Shown in pieces: positions 35,628 to 62,359 of a DNA stretch of 64,000 nt. The notes below the pieces were generated by a model. It worked only from the letters and a program-made list of their open reading frames with translations, made no database searches and had not been told where the DNA came from. The stretch comes from Fomes fomentarius (Eukaryota > Basidiomycota > Agaricomycetes > Polyporales > Polyporaceae): assembly GCA_022606135.1 (NCBI GenBank), contig JABYQN010000017.1, forward strand, positions 62,001 through 126,000. Direction: 5' to 3'. The number at the start of each line of letters is the position of its first letter. The first letter of the stretch is position 1. Both the position numbers and the translations under genes were made by a program.

Positions 35628-36331
35628 GTTTCTGCTGCCAAGCAGGTGAGGGTTGTCAGTTCTAAGTAGATCCTCAATTTGACGTGGGCGGCGATAGGTG
35701 AATACAACACACCTGTGCAGACTTTATACCGCTAGTTCAGGGTGATTTGATCGGCCACTCTGGCCACATGGGTGCACCCAGATCCACTCTCTTGTACGTG
35801 GAACCTGCTGTACCGGTGCTGTATACAAAGACATCAGAAGAGCGTATACGTAGCGAGGCGCAGCGGCGGACATGTTCGGGTTGCGTGGGGGATAAGAGCG
35901 CTGGTGCCTGGTGCACAGCTTTTGTTTCGCGTCGAGTTATCTGGGAGCGATATCGTACCTTGTAAAGAGCTGGATGGTGGTGGTGAAGCGCGTTTGTAGA
36001 GATCGCCGGGAAAACACAGACCGTAGAACCCTAACCCTATATGTATATCCTATCTACTCCGCACAGACTTCAACCGGTTCCTACTGATCGATAGCATTCA
36101 CCCGCGTCGACCACCACTGATGCCAGTCACCATATGGACCGCTTATGGGAAGTGGTTTTGACCGTAACACAGCGCCCTATACATGGGCCAAGAGTTCGTG
36201 ATTCATTGTTTATGTTTATATGATATCACATTGGAGAGGCGTGCGAGACACGAAGTAGCCAAGTGCTAGTGGCAGGAGTTGACGGAAATATCGTGATGAT
36301 CAAGGTATCAGAGCTACTATACAACCATGTT
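35628..36331. other. intergenic region between ankyrin and Hsp70-like genes
   Basis: No gene is visible. It should contain the promoter of the minus-strand ankyrin gene and the 3' flank of the Hsp70-like gene. A two-copy ccctaa word at 36027-36040 is too short to be a telomeric tract. Confidence 0.45.
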
Positions 36332-38841
36332 TCAGTCTTCATCATACACCAGCGTAGCGTCGCCACTGTTAGTGCGAGTCAGTTAGAAGTTGGAGTGAGT
36401 GTGGAAACAACGTAGGGAGCAATTGCGACGTACCGTTTCTCTTCGCCCTAAAGGGTATGAGGCAATTATTAGATAGTGCAAGTGGGACGAACACTGAGGG
36501 CGGGCAATACTCACATTCTCGACCCAGCTGACGTAGGCTTCAAGTCTCTGGACCATAGCGGAGGATGATCTTGTACTCCTTCGTTCTGAACTCGTCCGAC
36601 ATGGTCCTAAGTGCGCCCTTGAAAGGAACCGTGGCTACCTCTGATAGGTTTCCGCGTACGAGGCAGAGTCGCTTGAAGTGATCTTCTCATCTTGAGTACT
36701 CCACCCTCTACGAGTTGCAAGGACGACAATATTAGACTCGTACCTGGGTCTGTGATCTGCAGTCGTGGATTCTGGTCATGTCCCGTGTATTTGATGATCG
36801 ACGTCGAGAAATCGTTGAGGGTCCTTGACTTATGATATGAGACGCAGAACTCTTCGGAGAACTCTTCGTTGTCTTTGATGCGGGTGCCCTATGCATGACA
36901 TGTGAGTGGTGCAAGCCGACAGGAGAATTCACAGACTGACTTTCTTGACGATGGTTGAGAAGCCATCCTCGAAACACGGTCCTGCGGGCCCAAACTCCAC
37001 CGAATTCAGATGCAGACGATGTCTCGGATCGAGGGGATTGAAACGTATGTGAACCTGAGTACCAAGAGTCGCTTTCGCAATGCGGTACGATACGTAACGA
37101 TCCAAGTAAAATGATATGGCGCCTTCAGAAACTGCTTTACTCCTGCAACACAGTCGCTTATGAGTATAATTGTACCTGCCGCAAGACAAGGCCATAAGGC
37201 GATCCTGGCGATGACGCTCACATATGTTCTTCCGGTCGATAGAGCAGTAGACCCATCTTGCCGAGGGACTCCTTCAGGTTATCATACAACCACTCATTCG
37301 CAGAGAACCCTCCAATGAGAAATACGCTCTTCACAATATATTGACATTCAGCAAGTCTCGATGTAGAAATGTCCTGCTTACCGCAATGGCACGACCTGGC
37401 GTAGACTGAAACTGTCGTCGGATCGAATTGACGATGGCATCAAGCGATGGCCGGAAGAACGATAACATCTCGTCCCTAATGTAGCCACATCGTGATGAGT
37501 GAGTGAGATTGGCAGCATCGAGACGGTGAAACTAACTGTGTCAAGAGAACGTTCCCCTTTTTGATGTTCAGTGCGGCATCCGCGAGTGTGAGACCGGTAT
37601 TGATGTAAACGCCACGCGTGGATTTGCCGGAGAACAACGGTTTTGCCTTCTTGTCAAAGTTCTCCATCAGCGTCCGGATGGTCTCCGCGCCGTTGAAAAT
37701 GGGAGAGTTCGCAAGCCGTGCTAGAGATATAATATTCTAGCACTGTCAATGCGCTTGTGTGGTATCACCAACCTTTGAGCAGTCTCTCCGCTCGCATGTT
37801 TACGACTGTCGAGCCTTGTATGATACCTAGTCGCATTGGTTAGCGTGGAACGCCCGAAGATTAGCAGGGAGATAACTTACAATCGGGGGCGGAAATCTCT
37901 TCGACTGAGAGTGGGGCGGTCGATTTGATGACGTAGCTGCTGATGTCGACAGTACCTCCTCCAGTGTCAACGACCATGATCCGCTCTTCCGGCTGGGGTT
38001 CAAGGTGCATAAGTATCCTTCGCCGATGATATGGCGGAGACTTACCTTCATGCTTTCGCTTATCGTCCCCTTCTGCAAGCAAAAATGCAGACCCGCTTCG
38101 CCCTCGGTGACAAAATGGATCCTTTTCCGGCCTGGGTCCGTATCGGGGACGAGCTGAGCGAGTACAGCAGCCTCGCGCATCTTGCTCTGTTGCAGGCCTT
38201 CCCAGCCATTTGGGTGAGTGAGCACGAATTCGATATCGTCCTTGACCTCGTCCCAGCGACTCCCTCCAAAGGCGGGATTACTGTGAATGATGTCTTCACT
38301 CGCGCAAGAGAAGAGGAAGCGGAGGAAGTCGGCGAAGACTTGCACGACTGTCTTGCCCTTGGGGAGGGCGGAATGTTCTTTTTGTTTACTTCTTCGTTGT
38401 CGAGATTGTCGGGACGGAGATGCAGCTTGAACCTACACGTAGCTCATCAACCACAGAACGCCGAAAGACTCCACTTATAGCTCCGACATACCATTTTGCT
38501 AGAATCAAATCGTCATACTCGAGTTCCATGCGGGTGTCCTCGGACTCAGCTATTGCACCGCACGAGTGCACTGTTCCGTCAGGCTTGTAGTTCAAGATGG
38601 ATGGGACACGATAGTCCTGTGGAGCGTTGCCTTTTCCTGGGTATCTATCCGACAGTCACTCAGTCCGCAGATACCGCTGAACAGCATTGAACCGTTCAAT
38701 TGCTCACCGCTTGACTGTCTCGATGGTGGGCACTTTGCCTTGCTCGAGAACAGCATAGGACATGCCGGAGAACGTCGTCCCAACATCGATACTCAAGACG
38801 AGCTTCCGCTTCGAGCCCTTATATGCGTGTGGCGTTGTCAT
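36332..38841 (-). CDS. Hsp70-like ATPase, HSPA12 type, copy 1
   Basis: A many-exon gene for a divergent Hsp70-family protein without a canonical substrate-binding domain, the type expanded in basidiomycetes and related to animal HSPA12. The start MTTPHAYKGSKRKLV at 38841 is chosen by alignment with copy 2 (MATLQPFTGSRRKLV). Visible ATPase-fold motifs are LSIDVGTTFSGMSYAVL (phosphate 1), FVTEGEAGLHFCLQ, IMVVDTGGGTVDISSY (phosphate 2) and FLIGGFSANEWLYD (adenosine). Middle exons carry ETIRTLMENFDKKAKPLF and NPIF-type text, and the end reads LVYDED. All motifs are intact. The gene is head to head with the coiled-coil gene at 39223, 381 bp apart. Substrates and partners of this subfamily in fungi are unknown to me. 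Confidence 0.88.
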
Positions 38842-39222
38842 TGTGTTGGATTCCAATGGGTATAGCAGGGAGCGAAGGGTGTAGATGGAACGGGGCAACG
38901 CGCGCTTTAACGCTTTTCGGAGCGATTGCAAATAGGGTTCGTGCATGTTCAGTGCGTGTTCTGCGGTAGTCGCCGAAGTACTTCGACGATCTTGTATGAA
39001 AGCTTGGAGCGTATTAGAAGCTACATGCGGAAGGGTCCAAGATTCTTCTGTGAAAGAGGAAGACTTCATCGATGCAACATGGTAAACGGCTGGGGATCCG
39101 CGAATTCTGTGGATTAGGGTGAGCCACGGTACAGAGTCACAAGGAGAACAGAGAGTTTGCGACTGCTACCTTGCTTCTGACCACCGTTAACCGGTCTCTG
39201 GTTAACAATATCCTTCGGCATC
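38842..39222. promoter_or_regulatory. bidirectional promoter, Hsp70-like / coiled-coil pair 1
   Basis: These 381 bp separate the ATG of the minus-strand Hsp70-like gene (38841) from that of the plus-strand coiled-coil gene (39223), so both promoters must lie here. The second pair at 59518-59892 has 375 bp. I could not identify a clear heat-shock element; several TTC and GAA words occur near 39035-39060 but with irregular spacing. Confidence 0.6.
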
Positions 39223-40962
39223 ATGAGTCAACAACCTCGAGCCTTTCAGAAGTGCGGTTTCTCCCATCCTCTGAGTCAATTGCGATACCTTGATAGATCA
39301 CTCCTGGGGTTCATAGCACAAACGGGACGACCACCAATCATGAAGAGCAAATCAGGAAGTTGAAACTCGCGTTGGCAAGGTCGGAAGAGAATGCAAAGTC
39401 GTCAGAAGAGCAGGCGAGGGAGGCGCTGAAGCAGTGGAAGCAGTATTGCGAGGGTATCATTCGGGAAAGGAACCAGCTCGGTACACGCGTTGCCGGGCTA
39501 GAAGCTAAACTGAAGGAAACAACTCAATCGTCCACCCAGATTATAGAACAGACACAGGCGAATGCGAAAAACTGGGAGGCATACTACTGGAGGGTCGCCG
39601 GAGAAAGAGATCAGCTCCGAAAGACGAACACTAGACAATTGACAGCTGAAGCGGCAAGTTACAAGCTGCAAGTCCAACAGCTACAAGGCGACCTCGCCTG
39701 CGCCACGAAGAAACGGCAGGACATGGGCGATCTCCTCCAGAGACGAAACGCCGAGCTACGGGACGCCGAAGCGTACCTGACTCTCATCGACGACGTTGCG
39801 GATAGCGAGGTCGCCCAGATCGTCGAACACCTCAATGGCCAGATCTTCCAGTCCGCGGCAATTATCTCCGACGCTCCCGAGTTCTCCTACCACCGCAGGC
39901 CCGATGCCAAGGCTGCGGACGCCGCTCGAGCCAGGCTTGAACAGTCTTCTTGCCTCGGATCCAACCTGCTCGCGTCCCTCCGTAGGACAGCGCTCGAGCA
40001 GGATTCCGTGCTGGTACAGCTGGCTCTGCAGGCGGGAATGGTAGAGTATACGCGGCGTCTGGGGAATCGTTGGGACATCAGCTCGATGAAGAACCTGGAT
40101 GCGATCGGAGATGTATACCGGAAGATGCGGGAGACAGGTACGTCCCTCATCACGTCCCATAACTCTCCACTGAACACGTTTCAGAACCCCAAGCCGTCGC
40201 CGGAAGGTGGCGAATCCTCTGTCGCACGTACACCAAGCTCCTGCGTGGAAGGGCCGAAGACTCAACCCGCACCTTGTTCGACGCGCTGTCCTCTATGGTC
40301 ACAGACATCCTCATTGTCTGTGGCGCAGCGGGGACTCGGGAGAAGTTGCTGGAGATGGTTGCCCGGGAGTACGAGAGCGAACTACAGAGCGTCTTGAAAC
40401 TTGCCCTCCAGTTCCAGCGCACGGCGGGTGAGCGTGTCGTCTCTTCCGACTTCACCATCCTTGCAGCCAAGCCGGGCGCCGCGTTCGATTCAGCGCAGAT
40501 GGAGGATGCGCGGGCCACTACGGGCGCAGCCGCTACGCCACCTTCTACGAACGAAGTCCTCTGTACGACCGAGTTGGGCTTAGTGATGGAGAAGACGGTC
40601 GGCGAACCAAGACGTAGTAACGAGCCGCAAGCAACGGGCATCCAATCGACGGTGCTGAAGAGATGCAAGGTGGTATTAGCGGAGAAGCTTGACAATCAGA
40701 GCATAGATAATGGCGAAAGCAAGCACCGCAGTACGTTCCGACCATACTAGAAAGCTACAGTACTGACAAATTGAAGGTGCAGATGCATCCGACATCGGCT
40801 CTGAGTGGCCACAGGACATTGTAGGCGACGCCAACGAGCATGTTCCCGTCTTTGAGACCATGGTGAGTGATTTAACTGTCTATCAAATCGAATTGCGCCT
40901 CACCTACAATCCCGAAGGACGATTTATATCTATATCCCGATGCCGGGAACCTGCTCAGATAG
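39223..40962 (+). CDS. coiled-coil family protein, member 2
   Basis: Exons 39223-39251, 39317-40137, 40185-40730, 40783-40862 and 40918-40962 join in phase to 506 residues. The first exon encodes only MSQQPRAFQ; the long open frame in exon 2 has no ATG of its own, so this short exon is needed. Residues about 25-145 are coiled coil (RKLKLALARSEENAK, QLGTRVAGLEAKLKE). Then come DAEAYLTLIDDVADSEVAQ, LVQLALQAGMVEYTRRLG, the conserved intron, AVAGRWRILCRTYTKLLRG, DALSSMVTDILIVCGAAGT, LALQFQRTAGERVVSSDF, EVLCTTELGLV and CKVVLAE. Two short tail exons give ASDIGSEWPQ and DDLYLYPDAG. It is closest to the member at 55.4 kb. No enzyme motif is seen. The divergent Hsp70-like neighbour suggests co-expression (inference). 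Confidence 0.8.
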
Positions 40963-42400
40963 CGTTAGCAATTTGCGGGTCCCTGGCTGTCCTCGTCAAT
41001 GTGGCCCAGTGGCGAAGTTCGCGCTCAACATTTGGTACCAGAAGTTCAGATATAGTTAACGTGAGATTCGAGTGTCGTATCTACTACCATGAATCATCAG
41101 TACTGTCTTTCCTACCGCAAACGATCCCGGGACCTTTTGGGACATACGTACCAGTGATCGACCAGATGCTGACCATGCACAGTGGCCAACTTTCGGTTCA
41201 GACCAGACTGACTCAGACCAGTGCAGCCGCATGGCCCTTGCGGCCCGGAGGTGCCATGGGCGTCTCAATTGCCATTCCAGAGAAATTTGCTACCAGTGAT
41301 CACGACACTGCCATTATCCAGCTCGAGAAATACCTTCTTCGTAGTACTCCACTTCATCGTAAAAATCGCGGTAAAACGAAAATTGGCTTCATCTAAGACA
41401 ATCCACAAACAAATTTGACAGTCAACTCCAGCGAGCCCTTGGCCGTTCAACGTTGTGCAGACAGCTTGAAGATATCTGCGCACAAAGGGAGACCCATGGG
41501 TAAATGTCATGGAATACGGGTGCGTGATGACTCAGACCGTTGATGTGCGGGCTGCATCTCTCCTGACCATTGCCAAAGAAGGTTTCTTCCTAATGATCCT
41601 CCCCGGACGCTGTCATCTTCCTCTGCCATGTTTTTGCTGGTATGGGATCACTTACCATGTAGGATGCTTCATCTCAGGAGATTGCGGACGCAGCATTCTA
41701 GACCTTGTGACGCGGCCTTAGGAGCCTGAGGTTGTCCTTGCGGACTGCACATGTTCGACGGGCCTCATGTAGATTCCTGTCAATCGATTCCTCGACTCTC
41801 TACATCATAGTCTGGGCATCCTGTCAAGTGTTCTGGATTGCGCTTATATGCTAAGTTGGGCCTTGGTTTGCGTCTTGGTTCCAGACTCCCCGAGTACCCT
41901 GATGGAATTGATTCTGCAGCATCTGAGTGACAGGTGGTACACCGCCATTTCCCTCGTCACCAACATCCGGCAACTAATTCTCATTCACTCGCAGGCCTAA
42001 TGATAGCAAACCCTCGATCACGGCTCGCGTACAGATTTTGCCGTTCTCGAATCTCCTATGTTTGACGATGCGAATGTGCCCAATGCACAGCCCATAAACA
42101 CGGGTTGATCGTCTTCAGCGCCTTGACCTACCGCAGCACCATTACCGAAGGGAAACTTTATTTTGTGCTGGCCTTCGGCTTCTTGAGACGTGAGTCAGTC
42201 GGGAGGTTCTTGACTACCTGCCGGATCTGGACCTACGATTTCCACGAACAAGTCTGCGCCCAAACCTTGTATGCACTGCGGCAGTGGCACGCGCCCTTCC
42301 CTTCTTCTGCATCCTGCGCGACCTTTCTCTGTACCCTCATGTGCGCGAAGGCCGTTCCTACTAAGCTCAGTTCCTCCGCTTCGATTGCTGGTGAAGGACG
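40963..42400. other. intergenic region with possible fragments
   Basis: No complete gene is supported. Open frames near 42105-42491 may include the unassigned 5' exon of the PARP gene. The motif ctaccgcagcac at 42128-42139 also occurs upstream of two coiled-coil genes. Confidence 0.35.
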
Positions 42401-42536
42401 TGCACGATTAGCTCAAGACACAGCTCAAGCTCACTCTGGACTCTCTCGCACGCGCCGTACGGACCGGAGTGGTCTTTACGTGCAAGGTTAGAACCCTTCT
42501 GTACAATTGACATCCCGAACGTGACAACCCCTCTAG

Positions 42537-45500
42537 CTGTGGCCCTGCTGAACGACGAGACACTTGAATGCACTATCTGTTACGGGAGAGGACACGTTCT
42601 TGCCCGCCTCACGTTCAACATCTCTGGTAAGCAGGTCTCCTCTTTTCCCCTCGCGTGGCAATATCGTTATTGACCCTATAGTTCTCTAGATCCATCACGA
42701 TATCCTTTGCACCATGCCTTCACGGGCACGTACAATTTGACGGGATATGCGCGCAAGCTTTCCCGGCTTCTACAGAATACCTTACAGACTCCGAGTCCCA
42801 TCACAGTACAAGAGTTGCTGTCCGAGCTTCGATCAAGCCTGGCCGGACTTCCCTGGCCGACAATCCGTCAGGGAACGGAAACCCCACCTAAGAACGATAC
42901 GCGTAGCGTTGCTTCAGATGTCTCAAGCGCTACCACATGCGTCGACAAGGACGATGACGTCCAGAGCGCCGTAAAGTTTGAATGGAACATCTTACGGTGG
43001 TATGCTACTTACTTGCTTTGGACGTAATCCGCACTGATACACAATATGTAGCCACTTTCATGAAGCCATCCGAGCGGGCTGTCGTCCAGGTTATGTTGCG
43101 TCTGGTCCTGTAGTCTCGATGTCTCTCCCGGTCGCATCCTTACTCGGATCGCTCCCGACACGCTCTCTTCTGGCCTGGGACAGGAAGCTGTTCTCGGAGA
43201 GACATCACATCACAGTGCTGGTTACCAGCGTCGATGGGATGTACCCCTCACTCAAGTTGGATGGATCTCACAGGACATTCGAACCGCCCCGGTTCCGAGT
43301 TGGCGTCACTGCGAGGTACAAGCCTTCTGTAGTTATATCCGGCGATAGTACGACAAACTTCAACACCTTCGACGATTATCCGGACCTTCAGCCGTTCGAT
43401 ATGACGGCGGTGTTGGAGGACCTTCTGAACGGTGATTTCATGAGTATCCTGCAACTGCGCATCAAGTACCAGCTCAGCTGGGCTGGCGCGGAGCTGTTGC
43501 ATTTCCAACTTGGGCAGCTACTACCCTCATCAACATCACCGTTTGTCGCCTCCATCTTGGAAAGCTTATATGCGGTGAGTGACAATCCTGAGGCTGTGGA
43601 TTCGACCGTTTCTAACAATTTCTGGTAGCACATCGCCTATGCAGAAGAGGAAGAAGCCTGCATCATGGCCCCATGCCAGATACCATTGGATTCATCGGTC
43701 ATGCAGAACATACTCCACCAGCAAGATATCAACCTTCCCCTCATTGCGTTCATATATGTCTTCCGTCGGTTGATGGTATGTTCTTCAAAATAGGCCTCGC
43801 TGTTCCACTGATGGCCATCAACGCCCGCAGTTAGACGGCCGTTTCTGCCTAATATGCCATAAGCCGCTCTCAAGGGGCCTCGAAGTCTCCCAACAATACA
43901 TGTGTGACCCCCTTACGTGTCAATATCAATTCTATCATGGGCATCGAGGCCCGTCACTGGAGGTGCAGCATGTTCTTCATGACCCCTATGAGCGTTGAGG
44001 AGCTGAAACTTGCTCGCAGTACGAAATTTGCTCAAATCCAGAGACAGTTGACCTCCTCGTCTCTTTGGCGTATAACGCCGCAACCGTTATGGCACTAGAT
44101 CCTAGGCCAACAGGTCTAGGCCTTTGTGTTCCGAGGATGGACCCCAGTAGTGGGGTATTTCAAATGCGAAGCTTCGACGAGCTCTCAATACCCGAGGTAT
44201 AGAGGACGAATCTCAGCATAGCCTATGTGTCTTCTGACCAGCATATGGATGTCAGATGTGTATAGTAGTCAAGGATTTGATCGCATTACTACCCCCGGTA
44301 AGTACTGCCCATACTTCCCTACCTACATCGCCGACTACTATCTTGTTATCGCACTTGGTGTAGATCAGCGCAATGAAGACATACCTTGAGAATAGCCCCG
44401 CCGGCGCTCATACATTTTTCCGATTACGCGACATGGAACCGTCTATCCCAACAGCTGCGTGGACAGTGTTGCGCTGGTGCATCGCCTCTTGCCGGATGCG
44501 TATCGAGAAACTGCATTGCCATGATGAGATGGTCCAGAATATCGGTTCGTAGTCCGATTTGGTCTTGATGTTGGTCTATCCGATTCTGACTCAATCGCCG
44601 TACCAGGACCAGAATGGCGGCAGTTCAGGATCACACTGGGAAATCCAGAAGCTGAATTTCGATTTCAGCAAGAAGTGCAGCAGGCTCAGATGATGAACCA
44701 TAATGCCGTGACATACCCTTCTCTCTACGTGAGTGCCTTGTGAAGATAACCTGTGAGCCTAACTGAGTTCTTGGGAATAGGCTTTCCATGGTTCCCCACT
44801 CGACAGCTGGCATTCCGTACGTACTCTCGTGGTTAACTATTGGTATTACTAGTAGCGGTTCCATAACCTATCCTCCTTTGTAGATCTTACGCTATGGACT
44901 GAGATACGATACCATTCGACACGGACGACGGTACGGCCATGGTATGTGCTCGGCTTGTAATTTGCTGCTCGTTCCCCTGATTTGATATGACAGGTATATA
45001 TCTCGCGAAAGAGGCGTCTATCGCTGCGGGCTATGCGAAGTATGCGCACCCTATGTTTCAATGGTCGAATAGCGCATACACGATCCAACAATGCATGACC
45101 CTTGCGGAGGTCGTGAACCAGCCCAGTCAGTTCGTCTATGAGTTCTCGACACACGGCGGGAAGCAGTCGCATGTTGCACGCAACACATTCGTCGTGGGCG
45201 CGACGGAATGGGTCATGTGGTAGGTGCATGTCCCATTTATACAATCCCGCTTCTCGAATATTCACTATTATCCTATAGCCGTTACCTCTTCGTGAAGAGT
45301 ACGCCGTTTATGCCATCGGGTCAGGAATCAAGTACCTTTGGGGTGCCAGACTCCGTCGACTCCCTTATGGCTTTCCCGATGGCTCTTGGCGTACGCTGGG
45401 ACCCTATGCATCCACCGACTATGCTCAACAGACTTGTGGTAATCCCGGATCATCCTCAGAGGCTTTCCATTGCGGTGAAGGTATGGCGGGCGGCGTTCAC

Positions 45501-45591
45501 CGGAGAGGAGTATGATGAAGTCGATCGACATATACTGACAGGGAGAGACAGTGCTTTTGTTGATGCTGGGATCGAGCTGCTCTGGAAATAG
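42537..45591 (+). CDS. RWD-PARP protein lacking the E2 domain (5' end unresolved)
   Basis: A multi-exon paralogue of the gene at 47.1 kb. The first secure exon (from 42537) encodes an RWD-like segment, LLNDETLECTICYGRGHV and FNISDPSRYPLHHAF. Later exons give SLLGSLPTRSLLAWDRKLF, FMSILQLRIKYQLSWAGAE, a Cys-rich FCLICHKPLSRG and QYMCDPLTCQYQFYHG, and then the PARP catalytic core: AFHGSP (His of the triad), LRYGLRYDTIRHGR, YGHGIYLAKEASIAAGYA (Tyr) and VGATEWVMCRYLFV (Glu in TEWV). Exons join in frame where checked, so it looks intact. After the PARP core a different C-terminus runs to 45591 with no ubiquitin-conjugating domain. The start lies upstream, perhaps near 42100-42490. It should transfer ADP-ribose from NAD+ if active. 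Confidence 0.75.
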
Positions 45592-47075
45592 TCGATTCAT
45601 TGTTGTATTATGGTGATGCTCACGGTGAACCTGTATGTTGGCATGTGGCGGTTGTATGTCTGTTACTACAGCTGTTTGCAAAGTTGGTGGCCGCTCAACT
45701 GTGAGTGACGCGAGTGCACTTTCGACACGAAAAAAATCAGAAAGATCGAAACCCCGTTTGTGTCCTTGCTGTTGCTGTAAGACCAATCATATACACTGCT
45801 ACAAGCCTCACGAACACACCTGCACCTTCTGAATCTGCATAGATACTCGATCTTGTAAGTTGAATGAACCAGATCACCCATGGACAATCCCCAAAGTTCT
45901 GGGTACGCGAACTGTCTTCTTTGCCCCTGAGCCTCGCTACCACATTTTTCTACACCTGCAGTACCCTCTATGTGCAGTTTCATGCCATCAACGAGTGGTC
46001 TCGGGTTTGCAATGTCCTACTCAAAGATGTAGAGCCTTAGCGCCCGATGACATGGCTACTCAGCGGGCCGAGAAGTCGATGTTTACACCATTGGTGACGC
46101 ATAGAGCTCTATGAAGCTGGGTCGGAATACTCACTCGACATCTGAGAAAACACTACTGGCGATCTGAGGCAAGAACACAGTAACCTCTCGCACACATTTT
46201 CGAATTTCGTGTGCAAAGTGCAGTTGGGCGCTCGGCCACGAAAAATGCAACTGAATACGGCGAGTGTGGACGCTCCCGAGACCCGCTAGATACCACGGAC
46301 TCGAGAGGAAAGGGAGGGTGGTTTCGAGCTGATGATACGGCGAGGGCGAGGCACGCCCGAGACAAGATGGGGGGAGAATGTGCCAGCTCGAAACTGAGGA
46401 CCTAAGTCCCAGCTTGAGTGGCATATGTATTGATATGCATAGGGGAGCAATACAACCTAGATAAGCATAGTAAGAGTCGGAGTTTGAAAACTTATTGACA
46501 AGACTGTTATCGACATAGGGATCGCTACTAAGACGCAATAACGATCGATACTAATGGGCATAGAGATCGGTATGAAGGTACATAACAATCGGAACTAACA
46601 GATTCCTCATGTGTGTTTATTACTGACTAGCTGTTATAGATCGACTGTTATTACATGGAGTAATAGTAAGCAACAGCAACTAAACGACGGGCGCTCCTGT
46701 CGCCAAAACTTGAACTTGCGTGGAACAACTTGTTCCTTCATTCCACAATCATTCCATACGTCTTCACCTATTCAACTCTCAGCATTTAACCATCAGTACC
46801 TGCGCGCCGTGAATAGACCCAAAAACACCCGGGCAAAACGAATAGCACAAATCATCAAAGAAAGCACTCAAGTCCCTTGCTCAAATCCACCGATTTCTGG
46901 TATCGTCAAGAGCCCCTACTTTTGCGCTTTGAACGCACAGACACATAAAGATTGCTCCGTGACGTATATTCGAAGACCTCACACGGTCGCGGACTTCATC
47001 ACCACACGCAGCACATAGCTGCGGCAAGCCACGAGTTCTTGAGTCACCGACGTCTCTCTTCCACCATCACTATCC
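45592..47075. other. intergenic region with a degenerate 22-bp repeat
   Basis: No gene is visible. At about 46521-46600 a word of the type atcgntactaa recurs at 46521, 46544, 46566 and 46588, a spacing of 22-23 bp, some 480-550 bp before the next gene. Open frames here show no family resemblance. Confidence 0.45.
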
Positions 47076-51443: not shown

Positions 51444-52580
51444 TGGATGGTGACCCATGCCTTTGCCCGCAGATTCCACAGAATATCAACCGGCTTGCCG
51501 GTTAAGATCAAGGTGTGAGAAATGTACTGGTTGTACTTGTATTTGTGCTTTGTAGAGATGTTATCAATGATGTCATTCATTCCGTGGTGTCGCAGCATTC
51601 AACTTGGAACTAATAAACAAGGTACGAGACTGAAGGGGGAACATGGTCACTTGGAGGGTTCTTCGACAGTGCATTATTGACCCACGTAAGAAGTGGCGGC
51701 TTTCATGGCGAAACAGGTACGATTGAACATCCGAGTCAAGCACAACTTCCGAAGGTCAAGGGGAACCTGGAAACCGCGGACATAGGCCATACTTCAATAT
51801 CTGTACGGTCAAGGGCGGCGCAATGGGAGTTACTCACTGATGAATCTGACACAGGGCCTGCCTGTTGTCGCTGCCAGGGCATGGGTCGTGTTGAACACAA
51901 TACATCGGGGGGGTCGACGAGCGCGAACGTAATGGAAGCACATGCTCAGCACTCCGGATTTCTCGTCCTGACGGTGACTTTGAGGAAGGATGTCCAGCGA
52001 TATCCCCCCGCGGCGCGATGGATAAACATCACGACAGTCGTGCTCCTGCTGTGCTTAACATTGATCTTTTCACCTCTCAGAGATATCCCCTGCTTTCGCG
52101 TTCTTTATCTATCAAGAGCAAGCAATTCATGAGTTCCGACTCGGTTACCTGACGTACTTTCATATACTCCTGGTGGATGGGCATACCAGGTTCTTCATGA
52201 AATATGGTGTCCTGTAGCCCATGCGCCAGAATGTAACGTCAAGGGTTATTTCAGATTCATTGACCTCCTGATGCACGATTTAACGGACAGCTTGAGCAGT
52301 GTGTTCTCAGTTGTAGCGAGGGAGACTTACATCCAATCATTATAGCCGAGTAATTCTCGTTACTTACGCCAGGACGTACTAACCCAATTTGTATTTCGGC
52401 GTCTAAGTAGAGGGAGCGCGGCATCATTGTTGGTCTCTGCTTGTTCTTCGCTGCCATCATCGTCGTTGCCGTCGTCCCCCGACTTCAAGTTCTCGTCGCC
52501 GTCTCCGCTACGAGCACCGTGATCCCTCCCTCCTTCCCCCGCCCCCTCCTTTAGCCCCCCACATTCCTTTAACGTCAGCC
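51444..52580. other. intergenic region
   Basis: No gene is visible. The last 150 bases are pyrimidine-rich with gtcgtc and ccctcc words, consistent with a promoter and leader for the membrane-protein gene that follows. Confidence 0.4.
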
Positions 52581-54487
52581 ATGAAGGGCAGTTTCAAGAC
52601 CTTTCGTCTGGGTCATGCTGCCGGCGGGCACCAGCAAAACAAGCGTGATGGTGAGTGTACCCGCAAATTGCGTATTCATGTTGGGAAATGGAGAGGAAGA
52701 AGGGGAGAATTGGGTGCTGCTCCGTCGATGTGGCGGGGCTCTTCGGAGTTGCCTGGTGCGCCGTCCATCGATTCGGTCGTGCGCCGTTGACATCGGCGAG
52801 CCCTATGCACACGATAGTGCCGTGATAGGCCTCGGAGGGGCGTTGAGTGCACGCATTCCGTACTGTGCAGGCAACGCTGGCCATGGAGGGCGTCGCTATT
52901 CGATCTCGCTTCCAGGTCGGCTGACATCATGCAAATGGAAGACAACTCCCGGCCGCATCCTGCACACAGCAGAAGCAGAACTGACCATTCTTCCCAGACT
53001 GCTCTACCGGCGGGCTTTACAAAACACCTATCAAGGGCCAGTCCGTCGACGCCAGCTCGCCAGTCACTATCAGCTGGGACGCCACTTGTCTCGACACGGA
53101 TACTGTCGACATCTACCTCAATGCCCCAAGTGCTGTTCGTCCTGTCGTTCACGAGTGGCAGAACGTCAAATACGCTGCCGGTAGCTACAATGCCACTTTC
53201 AAGGCTGGATGGTGGAACTATACCTCGCCCGTCAGCTTGCAGCTCACGATTGTCCCGTCCGGCACACCTCTTTTCTTGGTCGACATACCCGCCGGTCCCT
53301 TCTTCTCCGCGACTTACTCTGGCACAGACAAAGACAGCTCCGCGGTTGCTGGTGCAGTTGAGCAGGTGAACAACGAGAAGGAGAGTGAACACCATGGTCC
53401 TTCCAAGGGAGGCATCGCCGCTGCCGTCATCATCCCTCTCCTCCTCCTCATCGCCTTAGGTGTCGGTGTATATATCAAGATGGCCCGCACAAAGAGCAGG
53501 GAGAAGCGCAAGCGTTTCAGCCAGATGGTCGACAAGCGCATGTCCACCATCTCGACCGATTGGAAATCGCTGTCTGGAGCTGGAGCGAACGCTGCTATCC
53601 GCAACAGCATGGCCATCCCCGGCAATCGCGCTTCATCGTTCTCCTTTGGTGCTATCCGTCCCATGTCTACCGTCGCGGTTGAGGGTGGTCAAGCTGGAAT
53701 TGGTGCTCAAGGCATAAATGCCTCGGATGACGCCCCCCCAATGTCGCAGCTGCGCCCTGGCGTTCGTACGTCCGCATTCGAAAATCGCGTCTCCCGCGTT
53801 TCGTTTGCCGCCGATCCCCGTCCATCCACCGAATCTCGCCGTACCCGTGCATTCCACACCGGCTACGTCCCGCCCCTTCCTGATCGCCAGAATTCGACTG
53901 AGAGCTCGAGCAACGCTTCCCCCATCCTCTCGCCCATTCAAACCGCCGGCCCCTTCACCCTTACACCTGAGGACATCCGCGCAAGGATGGCTGGTCAGGA
54001 GACTGCACCCCGTCCCAGTATTGATGAGGTTATGCCCGCTTTGAGCAGTACGTTGAACTAGCTTTTCCTGGTATTGATTCGGGACTCACATCTATTAGTG
54101 ATGCGCGACAATGGAGGTTCAGATGATCTACTCATCAAGAACCAGATGCCTTCGCCTCCAACCCCCACTCATCAGACGCCGAAGTCTCCGATTATGGGCG
54201 CCATGCCCATGCAGCCCATGCCCGCGAGCGTGATGTCGCCCGACGACATGCTTCGGGCATACGCTGAACGTCGTGCCATGGGTGGTTCCGTCCCTGGTAC
54301 ACCTGCCCTCCCGGCTCCTGCTGCGAACTACAACGGCAACGGCATGCGCACTCTCTACTCGACTAATACTCAACCGACGGTGGCTCCCGACTCTGTCTAC
54401 CCGTCGCCACCAAACAGGAAGAGCCTCGCGCCCACGGAGTATAGCAAGTACGACGACGACGATGCCTACGCCGGTACAGCTGAGTAG
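52581..54487 (+). CDS. single-pass membrane protein with Ser/Thr-rich cytoplasmic tail (5' end uncertain)
   Basis: The secure part begins about 53005 with CSTGGLYKTPIKGQSVDASS, an ectodomain with VTISWDATCLDTDTVDIYL, EWQNVKYAAGSYNATF and WWNYTSPVSLQLTIV. A single transmembrane helix follows (GIAAAVIIPLLLLIALGVGV), flanked by KMARTKSREKRKR. The cytoplasmic tail is long and rich in Ser, Pro and Arg; after an intron at about 54050-54100 it ends in a proline-rich stretch and YSKYDDDDAYAGTAE. The family, a predicted plasma-membrane or cell-wall-associated protein common in agaricomycetes, has no assigned function that I know. An ATG exon at 52581-52650 splices in phase to 53005 but encodes no signal peptide, so the true first exon may differ. 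Confidence 0.65.
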
Positions 54488-55447
54488 ACGTCCTCTCGAA
54501 ATGTTATTGCACCCTTGTTTCTCTCCGTCGGTTGTAGGATTTCTGTACTGGTACAACGGATGGCCAACTCCGCTGCTAGTCGCATTAGGAGAGCATCCTT
54601 ATCTTTCACCATCTTGTGTGAATCACTGTCATTTCTCCTCATATTCCGAGCCTACTATTCTTGTTGTCGATTTCTTTATCCCTTGTCCCTTGTCCTGTCT
54701 CACGTGTCCCCAAGAACGCCCATGGCCCATCGCGTGTTACTTATCATCCTGCCTCCTCGCGTCTGCTTGTTTCCTTCCTCCTTTCCTCCTGTCACCGTCC
54801 TCCTGAGCTACCACCCTACCTATAGCTTCCCGCCCCGCGTGAATCGCACGCCTCCACTTGTCAGTACCCTTCCCTTCCTCGCGCGGGGCCCCGCACGACA
54901 GCGTCGTCACATTTGCAGATACCCCGCCCATACATACAGCGCGGCGTTGGCCTCGACTAGCTTGAGGTCTTGATCACATGAAGTACATTGCATCGATACC
55001 TGCGCGGACTGGAGCCCGCGGCGATGATGCGGGCTCCGTACATACCGTATACGCATATGCATACTTCGTGCGCGCATTTACGTCCCTGTACGTACACCGC
55101 TTGATAATGTTTGTTTTCCCTATGTCTGAGCGGTGTCTGCTATATAATCGTACGGTATGAGAGTACTTGTCGCGGTTTGTAGTTCGTTTCGTGCGCGTAA
55201 TTGGATGTGGGTTCACTTTAGCATGCACGTATGCTGATCGAGCTCGTGTATGCCGCTCATCACGCGCACCAACAGATGCAATCTTCCACCTGAGGGCTCA
55301 GTGGGCACGTACGTTCGATCGCGTACGTAGACAAGAGGACACTGATGACTGACGGTACTAGCAGGTACGTATGTCTCAGGTCAACAATTTTGGTTGCTGA
55401 ACTACACAACATCAGGCTCAGGGTCGAAACGTGAACTGCGCACATCA
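54488..55447. other. intergenic region between convergent genes
   Basis: This segment lies between the 3' ends of the membrane-protein gene (+) and a coiled-coil gene (-). CT-rich 3' UTR-like sequence fills the first 400 bp. No further gene is visible. Confidence 0.45.
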
Positions 55448-57068
55448 TCAGGACGGCTGAGAAAGTCGGTAGGCCTCAGGAAGCACATCGTCCTTCCAAG
55501 TTGTAGGTGAGATGTAAAACGGTTTGCGGGAAGGTTCAGATACTCACCATACTCTCATAAACGGGGACATGCTCGAAGACGTCGCCTGCGATACGTTCTT
55601 GTGGCCATTCGGAGCCGATGTCCGAGTCGGACGCGGTGCCTGCACCTTGTCAATATTGTAGCTTCCTAGTATGGTCGCTAGGAACTTACTGCGGTATTCG
55701 CTATCATATATGCTCTGAATGTCGAGATCCTCCACTAACACCACCTTGCATCTCTTCAGCACCGTCGAGTGGATGCCCGTTGCTTGCGGCTCGTTGCCAC
55801 GTCTCGGTTCGCCCATCGTCTTCTCCAAGCCCAGCTCGGTCGTACAGAGGACCTCGTTCGTAGAAGGTGGCGTAGCGGGTGCTCCTGCAGTTGCCCGTGC
55901 ATCCTCCATCTGCGTCGCGTCGAACGCGGCGCCCGGCTTGGCTGCAAGGATGGTGAAGTCGGAAGAGACGACACGCTCACCCGCCGTGCGCTGGAACTGG
56001 AGGGCGAGTTTCAAGACGCCCTGTAGTTCGCTCCCGTACTCCCGGACAACCAACTCCCGCAACTTCTCCAGAGTCCCCGCTGCGCCACAGACAATGAGGA
56101 TGTCTGTGACCATAGAGGACAGCGCGTCGAACCAGGTGCGAGTTGAGTCTTCGGCTCTTCCACGCAGGAGCTTGGTGTACTTGCGACAGAGGATTCGCCA
56201 CTTTCCGGCGACGGCCTGGGGCTCTGAGGCATGCTCAGTTGGGAGGGTATAATGCGCGACGAAGCTCGTACCGTTCTCTCGGATCTTGAGGTAGATATCT
56301 CCAATGGTGGCGGGACGGTCTACGGCGCTGATGTCCCAAGTGTTTCCCAGGCGCCGGGCATACTCAGCCATTCCTGCCTGCAGAGCCACCTGGACGAGTG
56401 TGGAGTCCTTGCCCGAGGCCACATCAGAGAGCGAGGCGAGAAGGTCGGCTCCCAGGGAGGAAGCTTGTGAGAGCCTCGTTCGAGCGGCCTCTGAGGCCTT
56501 GCCATCGTGTCGGCCGTTGGAGGAAAACACCGGAGCGTCGGAGATGAGGGCCGCACACTGGAAGATCTGGCCATTGAGGTGCTCGACGATTTGGACGACC
56601 TCGCTATCCGCAACGTCGTCGATGAGGGTGAGGTACGCTTCGGCGTCCCGGAGCTCAGCGGTTCGCCTCTGAAGGAGTTCGTCGGCTTCCTGCCGCCTCT
56701 TCGCGGTGTAGGCGAGATCGCGCTCGAGCTGTGCAATGCGTAGATTGTAACTTTCCCCTTGAGCCTTCAGCTGGTCAACGTTGGTCCTGAGGCCGTCCCT
56801 TTCCCTAGCGACTCTCCTGTAATGCTCCTCCCACGCTCTCGCTCTCTTGTTCGTCTCGTCCAAATTGCTTGCCAATGACGCGACTCTTGCCTCGGACATC
56901 GCTAATGCCATCTTTAGCTCCCTATTCTCATCTAGACCGGGTCTTGCCCTCCCTTCCGGAGCCGATCTTGTCGTGCTCGATCTACGAGACCATAGCGTCT
57001 GTTGGTTAAGCCATGGTAAGAAAAGTAGGATATACACAACAGGTCGCCTCGCGTACTCGCTGAGACAT
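55448..57068 (-). CDS. coiled-coil family protein, member 3
   Basis: Exons 57068-57057, 56998-56272, 56223-55690, 55639-55548 and 55492-55448 join in phase to 469 residues. The first exon is 12 nt (MSQR); the frame of exon 2 has no ATG before residue 30 or so. A basic linker (TLWSRRSSTTRSAPEG) leads to a coiled coil (RVASLASNLDETNKRARAW, LRTNVDQLKAQGESYNLRI). The shared core follows: DAEAYLTLIDDVADSEVVQI, LVQVALQAGMAEYARRLG, the 48-nt conserved intron, EPQAVAGKWRILCRKYTK, DALSSMVTDILIVCGAAGT, LALQFQRTAGERVVSSDF and EVLCTTELGLEK. The tail exons give SDIGSEWPQ and DDVLPEAYRLSQPS. It is far closer to member 2, 15 kb away, than to its neighbour member 4, which suggests recent duplication or gene conversion. 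Confidence 0.82.
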
Positions 57069-57921
57069 CTTGCAGACAAGTGTACGATTATTGTCGGATG
57101 GGTAACTGTGTGCGGTTACAGGAAGCGGGAGGCGGTCAGAGCCCTTCCCTTGCCTTCACCGTGACTCACCCTAATCCGCGATATTTGCCATTGGACGACC
57201 TACCAACCCTAGGCCCGAGGCCGTGAACACGTTACATCCGTGAGGTGGCCTTTTTCGTTCACTCGCAGAAGAACTCTCGATCCTTCTGCTTCCGCCATGC
57301 TCAAACCTTCATAGCAGATCGTAGAACAGTTCGCTGACTACCGCAGCACACGAGCTGGGCACGTACGAACCTTAATCGTAATCAATCCGAGGCGTGCATG
57401 CATTCTTCGCTCTTTCCACTACCCCCGGACATGATTAACTGCAATGACAACGTCACATCATTGTGGAGAGGCTCACACTCTTTAGAGCTACTAGTACCGA
57501 CTAGAGTCGATGACACAGTGTCCAAGCCTTTGTAGATCGCCGAGTACACGGGTCGGGTGTCGTTCAGCGAGGGGTGACATATGATTCATGAGTCTGGGAG
57601 TGCGGCTGAAGGACTCGGACCATCCGGATGAGGCTTCCAGTAGGAGAGTACCCGTGACGTTGTAGCACTGGCGCCATTTTAGCGCCGGGAAATCTTCTAG
57701 ACGCCCATGGCGTTGCCAGCGAGTCTACTAGTACTACGTACGTAACTACGTTCATACACTGGACCTCCTTGCGACACAGTCGCGCCTGAACGTGCTCACA
57801 AGAACATCTAAATGCAGCTCGAGTACATTGAATACATGATAATTTGAACAGTGAACTAGTGACAACCAGCAAGGACCAGCAAATCCGAGTCCGATGAAAA
57901 TCCGAGTCGCAGATACTACTA
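57069..57921. other. intergenic region, promoter of member 3
   Basis: No gene is supported; an open frame at 57564-58079 overlaps the tail exons of the next coiled-coil gene in another frame and is a shadow. The word ctaccgcagcac at 57338-57349 lies about 270 bp upstream of member 3. Confidence 0.5.
57338..57349. promoter_or_regulatory. CTACCGCAGCAC motif upstream of member 3
   Basis: This 12-mer recurs at 59760-59771, upstream of member 4, with similar flanks (agctgg against ggctgg), and at 42128-42139 upstream of the shorter PARP gene. A shared regulatory site or a relic of promoter duplication is possible. Confidence 0.4.
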
Positions 57922-59517
57922 CTACACGTCGTGCCCTGCGTCTTGAGGAAGTAGATCGTCCTTACAAGTTCTAGGTGAGTTCTCTGGTATTTTGCGGACC
58001 CCGCAGAGTAAATGATGCACTTACCAGGCTCTCGAACATTGTCTGATGATCGAAGGGGTCGCTCGTCGGTGTCTGCCACTCGGAGCCGATGTCGGACGTA
58101 CCAGTGCCTATAATGTCATGAGGCATTGCTTACGAGGTCTGATTTAACAGCAGTGCTCACTCTCTGTGTTGCTAGGCTGGGGTATATGCTCCTCGACCAG
58201 CACTACTTTACACTTCATCAACACCGCTGTTTGAACGACCATCGGCTGTGACTGGCTGCGCTTGGCTCCACCGGAGGTCTTCTGGACGAGCAAGCCGAGG
58301 TCGGTCGTACACAAGACATTTGTGGGTGGTGGCGGCATTGCTGACTGCGTGATTACGCCCACATTCTGCATGCTTGTGGTGTCGAACGCAGCGCCTGGCT
58401 TCGCGTGGAGAATCACGAAGTCGCAAGAGACGACCCGCTCTCCTGCTGTGCGATGGAACTGAAGGGCGAGCTTCAAGACACCCTGAAGATCGCCTTCAAA
58501 TTCCCTCGCGACCACTTCCGACACGGTCTCACGACTGCCCCTTGCGCCACATACAAGGAGGACATCGGTGACCATGGTAGAGAGCGTGTCGAACAACACG
58601 CGCGTCGGGTCCTCGGCGCTCTCCCGAAGTAGTTTCATATACGTGCGAGCAAAGATTCGCCAACGTCCGGCAACGGCCTGCGGCTCTGTACTATTCTCAG
58701 CCCCGAGCTCTCGCACGAGATAGAGAAACGAACCTCTCTCTCTGATCTTGAGGTAAATGTCTCCAATTGTGGTCGTATCATCTACCGCGTTGACGTCCCA
58801 ACTGTTACCTAGGCGTTGTGTATACTCAGCCATCCCTGCCTGCAGAGCCAGCTGCACCAACTCGCAGTTCTGCGCGAGTGTGGTACTAGATAGTGAAGCG
58901 AGAAGGTCGGCTCCGAGGAAGGAAGACAGTTCAAGCCTCGCTCGAGCGGCCTTCCATACTGCGGTATCGTGTGGACCGTCGTAGGTGAACTCTGTGGCAT
59001 CAGAGATGGCGGCGGCAGACTGGAATATCTGGCCGTTGAGCTGCTCGATGATCTGGACAACCTCGCTATCCGCGACGTCGTCGATGAGAGTAAGGTACGC
59101 TTCGGCGTCCCGGAGTTCGGTTGTTCGTCTCTGGAGAAGGTCGTTGGTCTCTCGCTGTTTTTTTCCGGTATAGGCGAGGTCGCGCTCCAGCTGTATGACC
59201 TGTTGCTTGAGAGCCTCGCCTTGGGCTTCCAGTCGGATTGCGTGCGCCCTCAATTCGTCCCTCTCCCTAACGGCCCTTCCCCACTGCTTCTCCCACTCCG
59301 TTGCTCTCCCATTTGTCTGCTCCAAGTTCCTGACCAACCTTTCCGCCTCTTGCTTTGACCTGGCTAGTGCATCGTTGAGTCCCTTGATCTCCGCATCCTG
59401 GGCGAAAACTCTAGTTCTCATCCGACGGGTCCATGGGAGCTCTTCGTAAAGCCATCGCAAGAACCTTATAGGGGAAGCGAACAGGTATCTCAGGAGTCGT
59501 AGGAGTTGCAAAGGCAT
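57922..59517 (-). CDS. coiled-coil family protein, member 4 (paired with Hsp70-like copy 2)
   Basis: Exons 59517-58734, 58685-58161, 58107-58025 and 57960-57922 join in phase to 476 residues. The 48-nt intron at 58686-58733 is in frame, but its position and length match those in members 1 and 3. The N-terminus, MPLQLLRLLRYLFASPIRFL, is a hydrophobic, Arg-containing helix absent from members 2 and 3 and could bind a membrane. Then come the coiled coil (ALARSKQEAERLVRNLEQ), DAEAYLTLIDDVADSEVVQI, LVQLALQAGMAEYTQRLG, EPQAVAGRWRIFARTYMK, TLSTMVTDVLLVCGARGS, LALQFHRTAGERVVSCDF, NVLCTTDLGLLV and KCKVVLVEE. The tail gives SDIGSEWQTP and DDLLPQDAGHDV. It is divergent from the Hsp70-like gene 375 bp away. 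Confidence 0.82.
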
Positions 59518-59892
59518 CGCGGAGACGTAGTGAGTCTGGACGGATTGTCTGCAGAGCGCAATAGTTTGCTGGTCAAGAGGTGCGGCACCGTTCCTCCTCG
59601 TGTAACTCAAACTTCAGGGGACGGGGCACTCGCACTGCATTCCATGAGGGCCTAGGGCACTCAACATGTTGAGTCCTTGAGGCGCACTTCCTTAACGTAA
59701 GGCTTCTGGTTCTCCGTGACTTGCGGTGCTTTGAAACCTAAATGACAATGCTGCAGCAGCTACCGCAGCACAAGGGCTGGAGAAGCCCGGCTCCTACTGC
59801 AAGCAATACGTAAGGCTTGGATGTATTGTAGTGCAGTGAACACTCTGTCCTCATCGCTATCCGGCTCCAGCCATTCCAACGCACCGACATCA
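59518..59892. promoter_or_regulatory. bidirectional promoter, coiled-coil / Hsp70-like pair 2
   Basis: These 375 bp separate the two divergent ATGs (59517 minus, 59893 plus), almost the same spacing as in pair 1 (381 bp). It contains ctaccgcagcac at 59760-59771. No clear TATA box or canonical heat-shock element was recognised. Confidence 0.6.
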
Positions 59893-62359
59893 ATGGCAAC
59901 GCTACAACCCTTCACAGGTTCGAGGAGAAAGCTTGTGCTTAGTATCGATGTTGGGACAACGTTCTCCGGGATGTCATATGCGGTACTCGACCCGGGCGAG
60001 GAGCCTAAGATTGAACCAGTCAGGCGGTAAGCAACTCTTCATGGTCCGACGCTGTACATCAGGATTGATACACTGGGCTATGGTCGCATAGCTACCCAGG
60101 GAAGGCCAATGTTCCACAGGATTATCGCATACCATCCATCTTGAATTACACTCCCGACGGCGAGGTTCACTCATGTGGTGCGGATGCCGAATCTGAAGAT
60201 ACGAGGATGGCGCTGGAATATGAAGATTTGATCCTCGCGAAGTGGTATGGTCAAATTTGAGATCGCTCACATCGATGTACCGCCGCTCATAGGCGTCGTA
60301 TAGGTTCAAGCTACATCTCAGACCTCACGAGCTAGACAATGAAGAGATCAACAAGAACAACATACCGCCTCTCCCGAAAGGCAAGACGGTCGTGCAGGTC
60401 TTCGCCGATTTTCTGGGCTATCTTTTCGCTTGCGCGCACAAGTACATCTCCGACAGCCACCCAGCCACTGGCGTCAGCCTCTGGGACTCTCTCAAAGACG
60501 AAATCGAGATCGTCTTGACTCACCCGAACGGCTGGGAAGGGCCACAGCAGGCTATGATGCGTGAGGCTGCGATTATGGCTCAGATCATCCCCGACACACC
60601 CACCGGCCGCGATCGAGTCCATTTCGTAACCGAAGGAGAAGCAGGTCTACATCACTGCTTGCAGAAGGGATCGTTGGGTGAGACAATGAAGGTACGTGTT
60701 CCGGGTGTGCGCTGGAGGGGAGATACATGATTGAATGATGCTAGACCGGCGAGCGGATCATGGTCGTTGACGCAGGCGGAGGTACTGTCGACATCAGTAG
60801 CTACGTGTTCAACTCAACGTCGCCACTCTCGGTTGATGAGCTCTCGACCCCTGATTGTAAGTCGCATTAGTGGCGATCCCTCCTTCGAGCGCTCTCACCG
60901 ATATGTTTAGGTATAATACAAGGGTCTACGACAGTGAACATGCGCGCGGAGAAGTTTCTGAAAGGTCCGTAACGTAACTTGGGAGATGGAGACCTTATGC
61001 TAACACTGAGAGTACCTAGAACGTCTGGCGAGTTCCTCCGACCTCAATGGCGAGGAGACTATCCGAATTATGATGGACCACTTCGAGAGGAAGACGAAAC
61101 CGTTGTTCTCGAACAGTTCTACACGCGGCTGCTATATACCCACTGGAATCCAGAAGGTTGATGACGAGAAGCTGAATATCAAGAACGGAAGGCTTCTTTT
61201 GAGTTTGTCAGCCAATCATTGAGTCTCCTTTTCTTTGATACTCTTACGCTGACGCGGAACTCCAGTAATGAAATGCTGTCGTTCTTCCAACCGTCTCTTG
61301 ATGGGATCGTGAACTCGGTCAAACGGCAGTTTCAGTCGACACCAGGGCGTCCTATATCGGTGAGCGATGCCGTACTATCATACAAAGCATGTGTCTAAAT
61401 GCACCCGCAAAGATGGTGTTTCTCATCGGCGGATTTTCTGCCAACGAGTGGTTGTACGATCATCTCAGAAGCTCACTTGATAAGATTGGGTTGCGCATCT
61501 ATCGACCGGACGAGCATATGTAAGGATCGATATCTTCATCTTTGATCTATTCCGTTGACTCCGCGCGCAACCGTGATCTCAGGAGCAAGGCGGTCTCGGA
61601 CGGCGCCATCGGCTACTACCTCGAGCATCTCGTATCATCTCGTATCGCGAGAGCAACCTATGGCACTCCTGTTGCTACTAGATTCAACCCCTTCGATCCA
61701 GAGCACCGTAAACGGATCGACCTTGCGGATTTGAGCTTCTCTGGCATCGTATTTGAAGATGGATTTTCTATGCTAGTCAAGAAAGTAAGTCGCCAGTATG
61801 TCGTGTACTTCTGTGGACTCTCAATTGACAACACGGTAGGGATGTCCGGTGAGCGATGGGCAGGAATTCTCGGAAGAGTTTGGTATCACATATCGCAAGC
61901 CAAGAGAGATCAAAGAGATAACCGACGAAATCCTCAAGTACACAGGCAAGGATAAGAATCCGCGGTGGCGAAGTACCGAGCCCGGTACGTCAATTCATGC
62001 AAATGCTCATATGTCATCCTGAAAGGTCTGTAGACAAGTTCAAGCGACTGTGCCTTGTTCGCGCAGATTTGTCTAAGCTTGAAGGAGTTCCTTTCCGCGG
62101 GCTTGTGGATGACGTATATGTCAAACGTTTCAAAGTAATCCTTCGCTTCGGAGCGGAGACGCAAGCACAGATTGGCTGGCTTGAGGATGTGAGTGATACT
62201 GAGAGCGAATGCACAGCACGATCATACTCAGGCTCATTTCACAGGGCGAAGAGAAACGGTGAGTCTCACAAGGATGTAACGTTCTCGTTGGACACTCCAC
62301 TAACACGCTCTTACAGTGGACCTGCTCAGCTCGTGTATGATGATGATGACTACCGTTGA
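59893..62359 (+). CDS. Hsp70-like ATPase, HSPA12 type, copy 2
   Basis: A many-exon paralogue of the gene at 36.3-38.8 kb, starting MATLQPFTGSRRKLVLSIDV. Motifs in order: DVGTTFSGMSYAVL (phosphate 1), KTVVQVFADFLGYLFACAH, IVLTHPNGWEGPQQAMM, FVTEGEAGLHHCLQKG, IMVVDAGGGTVDISSY (phosphate 2, with Ala where copy 1 has Thr), ETIRIMMDHFERKTKPLF, MVFLIGGFSANEWLYDHLR (adenosine), SDGAIGYYLEHLVSSRIA, and a C-terminal SGPAQLVYDDDDYR. Splicing is consistent wherever I followed it, with no stop in the exons. It lacks a classical EEVD tail and substrate-binding domain, like HSPA12. It sits head to head with coiled-coil member 4. Predicted soluble; function of the fungal branch unknown. Confidence 0.88.

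Follow-up and report, generated by a model that had tools for sequence, protein, structure and literature searches.

Head-to-head Hsp70 and coiled-coil gene pairs of Fomes fomentarius: a probable co-regulated module, duplicated as a unit

The window analysed here, a stretch of 64,000 bp (C17:62001-126000) from the genome of the fungus Fomes fomentarius (Polyporales; 40.9 Mb in 24 contigs, contig C17 spanning 450,745 bp), contains two head-to-head gene pairs, each composed of an atypical Hsp70 gene and a gene for a coiled-coil (CC) protein. As the most economical reading, our results suggest that each such pair is probably one module, in which the Hsp70 and the CC protein work together. The observed basis for this lies in the arrangement of the genes, their repeated duplication as a unit, their long retention under purifying selection and a conserved promoter element. 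In pair A, the Hsp70 gene H1 (36334..38841, minus strand, 13 exons modelled; public model P0100 = C8Q74DRAFT_1373996) and the CC gene C1 (39223..40960, plus strand, 4 introns; public model P0003 = C8Q74DRAFT_1373997, 506 aa) diverge from a promoter region of 381 bp between their start codons (38842..39222). Pair B shows the mirrored layout, with C2 (57973..59517, minus strand; relative P0002, 91% identity) and H2 (59893..62357, plus strand, 13 exons, open; P0060 = C8Q74DRAFT_1309969) separated by a divergent promoter region of 375 bp between the start codons (59518..59892). An initial annotation of this DNA had described both pairs, and our own as well as the public models confirm them: P0100, P0003 and P0060 match our models except for one splice site, and those of H1 and C1 carry consecutive tags. 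In some CC genes the reading frame is interrupted by stops around ‘RERG’; these belong to an intron, which P0003 shows for C1. The same annotation regarded the pair as occurring twice, which falls short, as seven more head-to-head pairs were found in the genome, one of which starts at the window end with C3 (62924..64000, minus strand, cut by the window end) and continues beyond it with its partner H3 (C17:126684-129135, plus strand).

The extent of both families was determined by six-frame whole-genome searches with single proteins, completed by local re-searches, and the resulting gene counts are lower bounds. They gave at least 10 members of this Hsp70 branch, nine on contig C17 (H1-H9) and one on contig C4 (H10), at least 13 CC genes (C0, C1, C1b and C2-C11) and a 75-residue piece resembling gene C7 on contig C5. 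All of these Hsp70 genes but one stand head-to-head with a CC gene, which makes nine pairs. Of these, eight (H1-C1, H2-C2, H3-C3, H4-C4, H5-C5, H6-C6, H8-C8 and H9-C9) lie on contig C17, all within 112 kb, and the ninth, the diverged H10-C10, stands alone on contig C4 (CC gene at C4:1180797-1182517, minus strand, with a presumed start codon; Hsp70 gene at 1184330-1186610, plus strand). Genes H1-H9 have a common layout of 12 introns, except for H8, which was modelled with 11, and H10 was modelled with 9. Note that a truncated Hsp70 copy belonging to this branch, reduced to its C-terminal half (residues ~292-591), is located between H5 and C6 (C17:140593-141687). Besides this fragment, the stretch from C1b to C8 (C17:117.5-160.5 kb) holds three other open frames of at least 180 codons, all at 150.9-155.0 kb. 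Gene C7 (C17:151635-153009) is located inside the array and is not head-to-head with an Hsp70, and the deep CC paralogue C11 (C4:386741-388880, L012) has no Hsp70 match within the 16 kb read.

The proposal of the initial annotation that the pair was the duplicated unit is strongly supported by the pairing of 9 of the 10 Hsp70s, the mirrored distances, purifying selection and the presence of the element in most pairs, and it appears well supported that this unit would be co-regulated in most copies. Protein distances among the Hsp70s and among the CC proteins of the eight C17 pairs are correlated (r 0.69, reached by 2 of 40,320 permutations), as they are within pairs 3, 4, 5, 6 and 8 (r 0.88, 1 of 120) and over the nine pairs including that of contig C4 (r 0.78, 2 of 362,880), the observed order itself being included in these permutation counts. 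In quick trees of the two families, both with several open forks, H1, H2 and H9 group with relatives from Daedaleopsis, Cerioporus and Lentinus, apart from the other Hsp70s, and C1, C1b, C2 and C9 group with relatives from Earliella and Daedaleopsis, apart from the other CC genes. The ratio of nonsynonymous to synonymous divergence (dN/dS), calculated with NG86 on seven chosen comparisons, is 0.16-0.35 for the CC genes at a dS of 0.58-1.84 (four comparisons, the lowest dS being that of C1-C1b, which does not oppose two pairs) and 0.09-0.10 for the Hsp70s at a dS of 2.6-3.0 (two comparisons, a third being saturated). The dS is at least 1.3 between the pair copies compared, and the CC genes change faster than the Hsp70s, with 23-80% identity among the CC copies of contig C17 and 21-27% for C10. 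With dS high and dN/dS low in the comparisons made, the duplications are old and both genes have been kept.

The intergenic DNA of the pairs, otherwise mostly unalignable, in most cases contains the element CTACCG(C/T)AGCAC: six of the eight C17 pairs have it in the orientation of the Hsp70 gene, with no more than one mismatch, 115-158 bp ahead of the Hsp70 start. As a chance control, 20,000 positions were drawn at random from the same C17 stretch, and 48 of them have such an element 90-170 bp upstream. It reads CTACCGCAGAAC in pair A (38958..38969, minus strand, one mismatch) and CTACCGCAGCAC in pair B (59760..59771, plus strand, exact), beginning 128 bp upstream of the start codon in H1 and 133 bp in H2. 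Another exact copy (57338..57349, plus strand) precedes C1b by 270 bp and has the orientation relative to the CC gene that is also seen in pair B. Since the element is kept there in this orientation, C1b (55450..57068, minus strand; P0001 = C8Q74DRAFT_367972, 80% identity to C1), which lacks an Hsp70 partner, would suit a pair that has lost its Hsp70; its upstream DNA is partly similar to that of pair A. Within C17:52-216 kb, 11 sites with at most one mismatch were counted, 9 of them upstream of CC or Hsp70 genes (3 of these in pair 6). An exact copy at 42128-42139 lies downstream of C1 and is not before any Hsp70 or CC gene found. Matches between intergenic regions at E ≤0.01 are short (pairs 1 and 9, pairs 2 and 9, C1b with pair 1 twice and C1b with pair 2), and most of them surround the element; for pairs 3-6, 8 and 9 the CC start codon was placed only approximately, and so were the intergenic limits that depend on it. 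When the intergenic DNA of the eight C17 pairs was searched for heat-shock elements, GAAnnTTC occurred 3 times against 0.9 expected, and neither TTCnnGAA nor a triple repeat was found. The C17 pairs resemble known divergent gene pairs with a bidirectional promoter in their short shared intergenic region and in their element, conserved in most copies, and differ from them in that Fomes has nine paralogous copies of one pair with mirrored divergence. The shared element offers a way to find out under which conditions the module operates.

Concerning the Hsp70 protein, the ATP-site residues D19, T22, K98, E206, D234, T239, G380 and G381, whose correspondence to the Hsc70 numbering is our assumption, are present in all 10 Fomes models and are kept in 117 to 120 of the best 120 of 1281 database matches; the residues following E206 are disrupted in H8. 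The earlier statement that both copies of the window keep their nucleotide-binding motifs therefore stands, with the reservation that H1 has two frame breaks (window ~38363 and ~36538), whereas the H2 model is clean. Indeed, the public H1 model P0100 skips residues at the first break and stops at the second, and H1 is damaged, truncated or mis-assembled. Frame breaks were also found in our models of H4, H7 and H8: the public model of H7 splices around its break, a break persists in the alignments of the public H1 and H8 models, and the H4 break, close to the C-terminal end, could stem from the modelling (the matches listed include no public model of H4). The structure model of P0060 (predicted local distance difference test, pLDDT, of 90.1) aligns to BiP and DnaK over the nucleotide-binding domain and the beta part of the substrate-binding domain, and no helix of four or more residues follows residue 453, so that the canonical alpha-helical Hsp70 lid is missing. 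The family profile matches DnaK in the PDB (E 1e-6), and the PF00012 profile does not detect H2 or P0060 and scores P0059, P0061 and P0106 below its cut-off. Surveys based on PF00012, as an example that of L. edodes (PMC9858218), may miss this branch. The closest known likeness considered is a presumed one to the HSPA12 type: the Fomes Hsp70 has the phosphate and adenosine motifs, is strongly diverged and lacks a C-terminal EEVD (H2 ends in DDDDYR), and its relative P0106 is recorded as ‘Heat shock 70 kDa protein 12B’. In contrast to HSPA12, it is multicopy, barely seen by profiles and has 13 coding exons, against 12 given for human HSPA12A/B in a 2008 study, where HSPA12 homologues were vertebrate-only among the genomes examined (PMC2266713).

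In other species, CC relatives were collected with two queries, each covering up to ~8000 candidates (at least 10 matches with A1 and at least 55 with A2), and Hsp70 relatives from 1281 matches at 1e-40, of which the best 120 were used; contig sharing was inferred from the equal size of the Hsp70 and CC contigs in the records. Among the matches listed, 25 other species have both genes, and in 18 of them the two occur on one contig; 50 of 67 Hsp70s lie on a CC-bearing contig, against 1.3 expected for independent placement in 40-Mb genomes. Since the Hsp70s are the best 120 of 1281, the seven species without sharing are not clean negatives. Outside the 25 species stand Taiwanofungus, Trametes cinnabarina and Vararia, which have a CC match and no Hsp70 among the matches listed, and the Hsp70 rows P0063, P0075, P0117 and P0151, which come from further strains or species. 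The linkage anticipated by the initial annotation therefore holds at the contig level and, for most of the sharing species, only through a CC type that is unpaired in Fomes (see below); pair-type CC genes appear, among the matches listed, only in Earliella, Daedaleopsis, Ganoderma sinense and Epithele. Gene order outside Fomes was readable only through consecutive tags in G. sinense (Hsp70 GSI_03362, then CC GSI_03363, with orientation unseen). Among the matches listed, the tags are not consecutive in Fibroporia (06817 vs 06809 and 06835) and in G. adspersum (000815 vs 000554 and 000572). We take the named CC relatives to be Polyporales except for Vararia, which belongs to Russulales. A literature search over titles and abstract openings, with subscription papers mostly outside it, found no such pair and no basidiomycete expansion of this Hsp70 branch.

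Altogether, these data are consistent with a module in which a lidless atypical Hsp70 with a complete ATP site and its own CC partner would be expressed together from a shared bidirectional promoter, which carries the element in most pairs. The CC protein would dimerise through its coiled coil, its conserved C-terminal helical-and-beta domain would dock on the Hsp70, and, as an adaptor or as a cofactor resembling an exchange factor, it may thereby steer the Hsp70's cycle of ATP or of substrate, each CC copy presumably acting with the neighbouring Hsp70. We keep as an inference the idea of the initial annotation that the CC protein may be a partner, co-chaperone or client of this Hsp70, bearing in mind that a cofactor and a client cannot be told apart from sequence. 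To our knowledge, few clients or partners of atypical Hsp70s have been described, and a genetically tied partner in nine paralogous pairs of one fungus makes cognate versus non-cognate binding directly testable.

Several observations weigh against such a module. The H10-C10 genes on contig C4 are ~1.8 kb apart and have no short shared promoter; 4 of the 13 CC genes (C0, C1b, C7 and C11) have no Hsp70 neighbour, and H7 is the sole Hsp70 without a CC partner; H1 and H8 are paired and yet damaged in our models. Pair 3 has only a two-mismatch site of the element, and pair 8 and the contig C4 pair have no outstanding match. The C17 copies are kin by descent and therefore not independent trials. In addition, 14 of the 18 sharing species rest on a CC gene whose best match is C7, unpaired in Fomes, and Cyathus, Leucogyrophana and Phanerochaete have Hsp70 relatives with no CC gene among the matches listed, so that part of this Hsp70 branch may do without the CC protein. 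The main rival explanation, possible although rather unlikely in our view, is that a shared promoter within a tandem array led both genes to be copied together by unequal crossing-over, neither being lost cleanly, and that the two proteins are co-regulated and never meet. It would account for 8 of the 9 pairs lying on one 112-kb stretch and for the promoter element common to pairs, and joint duplication would by itself produce the mirror-tree correlation. It is less compatible with the constraint on both genes after strong divergence, in the comparisons made, and with the presence of a pair on contig C4; moreover, the orphans C1b, C0 and H7 show that separation is possible, and yet 9 of the 10 Hsp70s found remain paired.

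How the CC protein might act was considered from its own features. In the model of P0003 (pLDDT 78.5), a helix (39-164) is followed by a helical domain (172-367), beta strands (372-448) and a low-confidence tail. Its combination with an ATPase chaperone recalls the DnaK-GrpE system and other Hsp70 nucleotide-exchange factors, in which the coiled-coil protein also has a terminal beta domain, and the CC protein could then be a GrpE-style cofactor, with a long paired helix and a small beta domain opening the Hsp70 ATPase. We consider this specific form improbable and do not claim a GrpE relationship: the coil and the beta domain are separated by a domain made up of several helices, the VIA fold rows (two being GrpE) are within the noise for helical models with a poor root-mean-square deviation, Foldseek found no match at E ≤0.001 among PDB and viral models, the Fomes genes are divergent and multicopy, and neither a GrpE row at E up to 1 nor a DnaJ or BAG row was obtained from Pfam for seven CC proteins (for P0006, in the best 25 of 30 rows). 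More generally, Pfam, NCBIfam and PADLOC returned weak, mostly coiled-coil rows, none above the curated cut-off where one is given, and viral and prokaryote collections held no relatives; no Pfam family reaches its cut-off in our scans of this family, whose model has no clear structural match. The relative P0004 bears a database annotation of PF27605.1 and PF19220.7, PF27605 not being among the rows of our own P0004 scan. The N-terminus is hydrophobic in the C7 type (Kyte-Doolittle maximum of 1.85 over 19 residues), amphipathic in C2 and neither in C1, and because of this variation membrane tethering is not general in the family. Very improbable, finally, is a CC protein that is a client or a harmful factor restrained by its Hsp70 in a diversified self/non-self or guard array, which lineage-specific multiplication and the strong and faster CC divergence would suit, but which fits poorly with a dN/dS below 1 in all measurable comparisons, the persistence of orphan CC genes without Hsp70 and Pfam lists with no HET, NLR or toxin-like row.

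Returning to the module of Hsp70 and CC partner, its cellular use was approached through the element. Exact CTACCGCAGCAC occurs at 56 sites genome-wide, compared to 11 for the reversed control, and 5 of the 56 are on contig C17. Four of the 51 fetched sites (L022, L053, L054 and L062) lie in near-identical longer DNA, and part of the count is therefore a repeat. From the 49 stretches representing the 51 sites outside contig C17, 248 open frames were reduced to 47 selected and 30 scanned with Pfam, the selection leaving out the sites of these four repeat stretches and of L024 and L045, which have two sites each. The scan gave five BTB matches (all on contig C3), one ubiquitin-like, one ETF and one zinc finger, and nothing for 22 frames. 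Indeed, CTACCGCAGCAC is found near a BTB/POZ gene cluster at C3:1.75-2.01 Mb (L026-L030), and one site on contig C15 (C15:201462, L061) is ~230 bp from a PF00651 match. BTB proteins are of the ubiquitin-ligase adaptor type, and since the same element occurs near their genes, the module may serve a diversified cytosolic protein quality control, which we suggest with less weight than the action of the CC protein on its Hsp70. As the BTB genes form a paralogous cluster, this association is a lead and does not demonstrate a regulon. In a broader proposal, Polyporales would have an array of mutually specific pairs, each of a lidless Hsp70 and its cognate CC protein, switched on with BTB ubiquitin-ligase adaptors via CTACCGCAGCAC; the array would be an Hsp70-based system of diversified surveillance or quality control in the cytosol, and its cofactor would have a new fold. 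This proposal is quite unlikely to hold in full. A proteasome regulon was rejected: of the element sites compared, the one closest to a listed PF00227 match is still 8.9 kb away from it (on contig C20), and none has such a match in its 5-kb surroundings. Note that near-identical proteasome-family matches recur every ~11 kb at C7:2650148-2683730, at the end of contig C7, and again at C20:290121-290623, near a contig end, possibly as a subtelomeric repeat.

The remaining features of the window are located away from the pairs or at their margin. The CC gene C0 (10205..11715, minus strand, with an approximate 5′ limit) has no Hsp70 partner, and at 3838-4578 lies a HAMP-repeat protein, possibly a Nik1-type histidine kinase. 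Beside pair A, an ankyrin gene and its neighbour (window 29000-36300) have a 71-76% identical copy at C5:1407003-1411412 (L014), which we read as an old segmental copy and which lies near the 75-residue piece of a C7-type CC gene.

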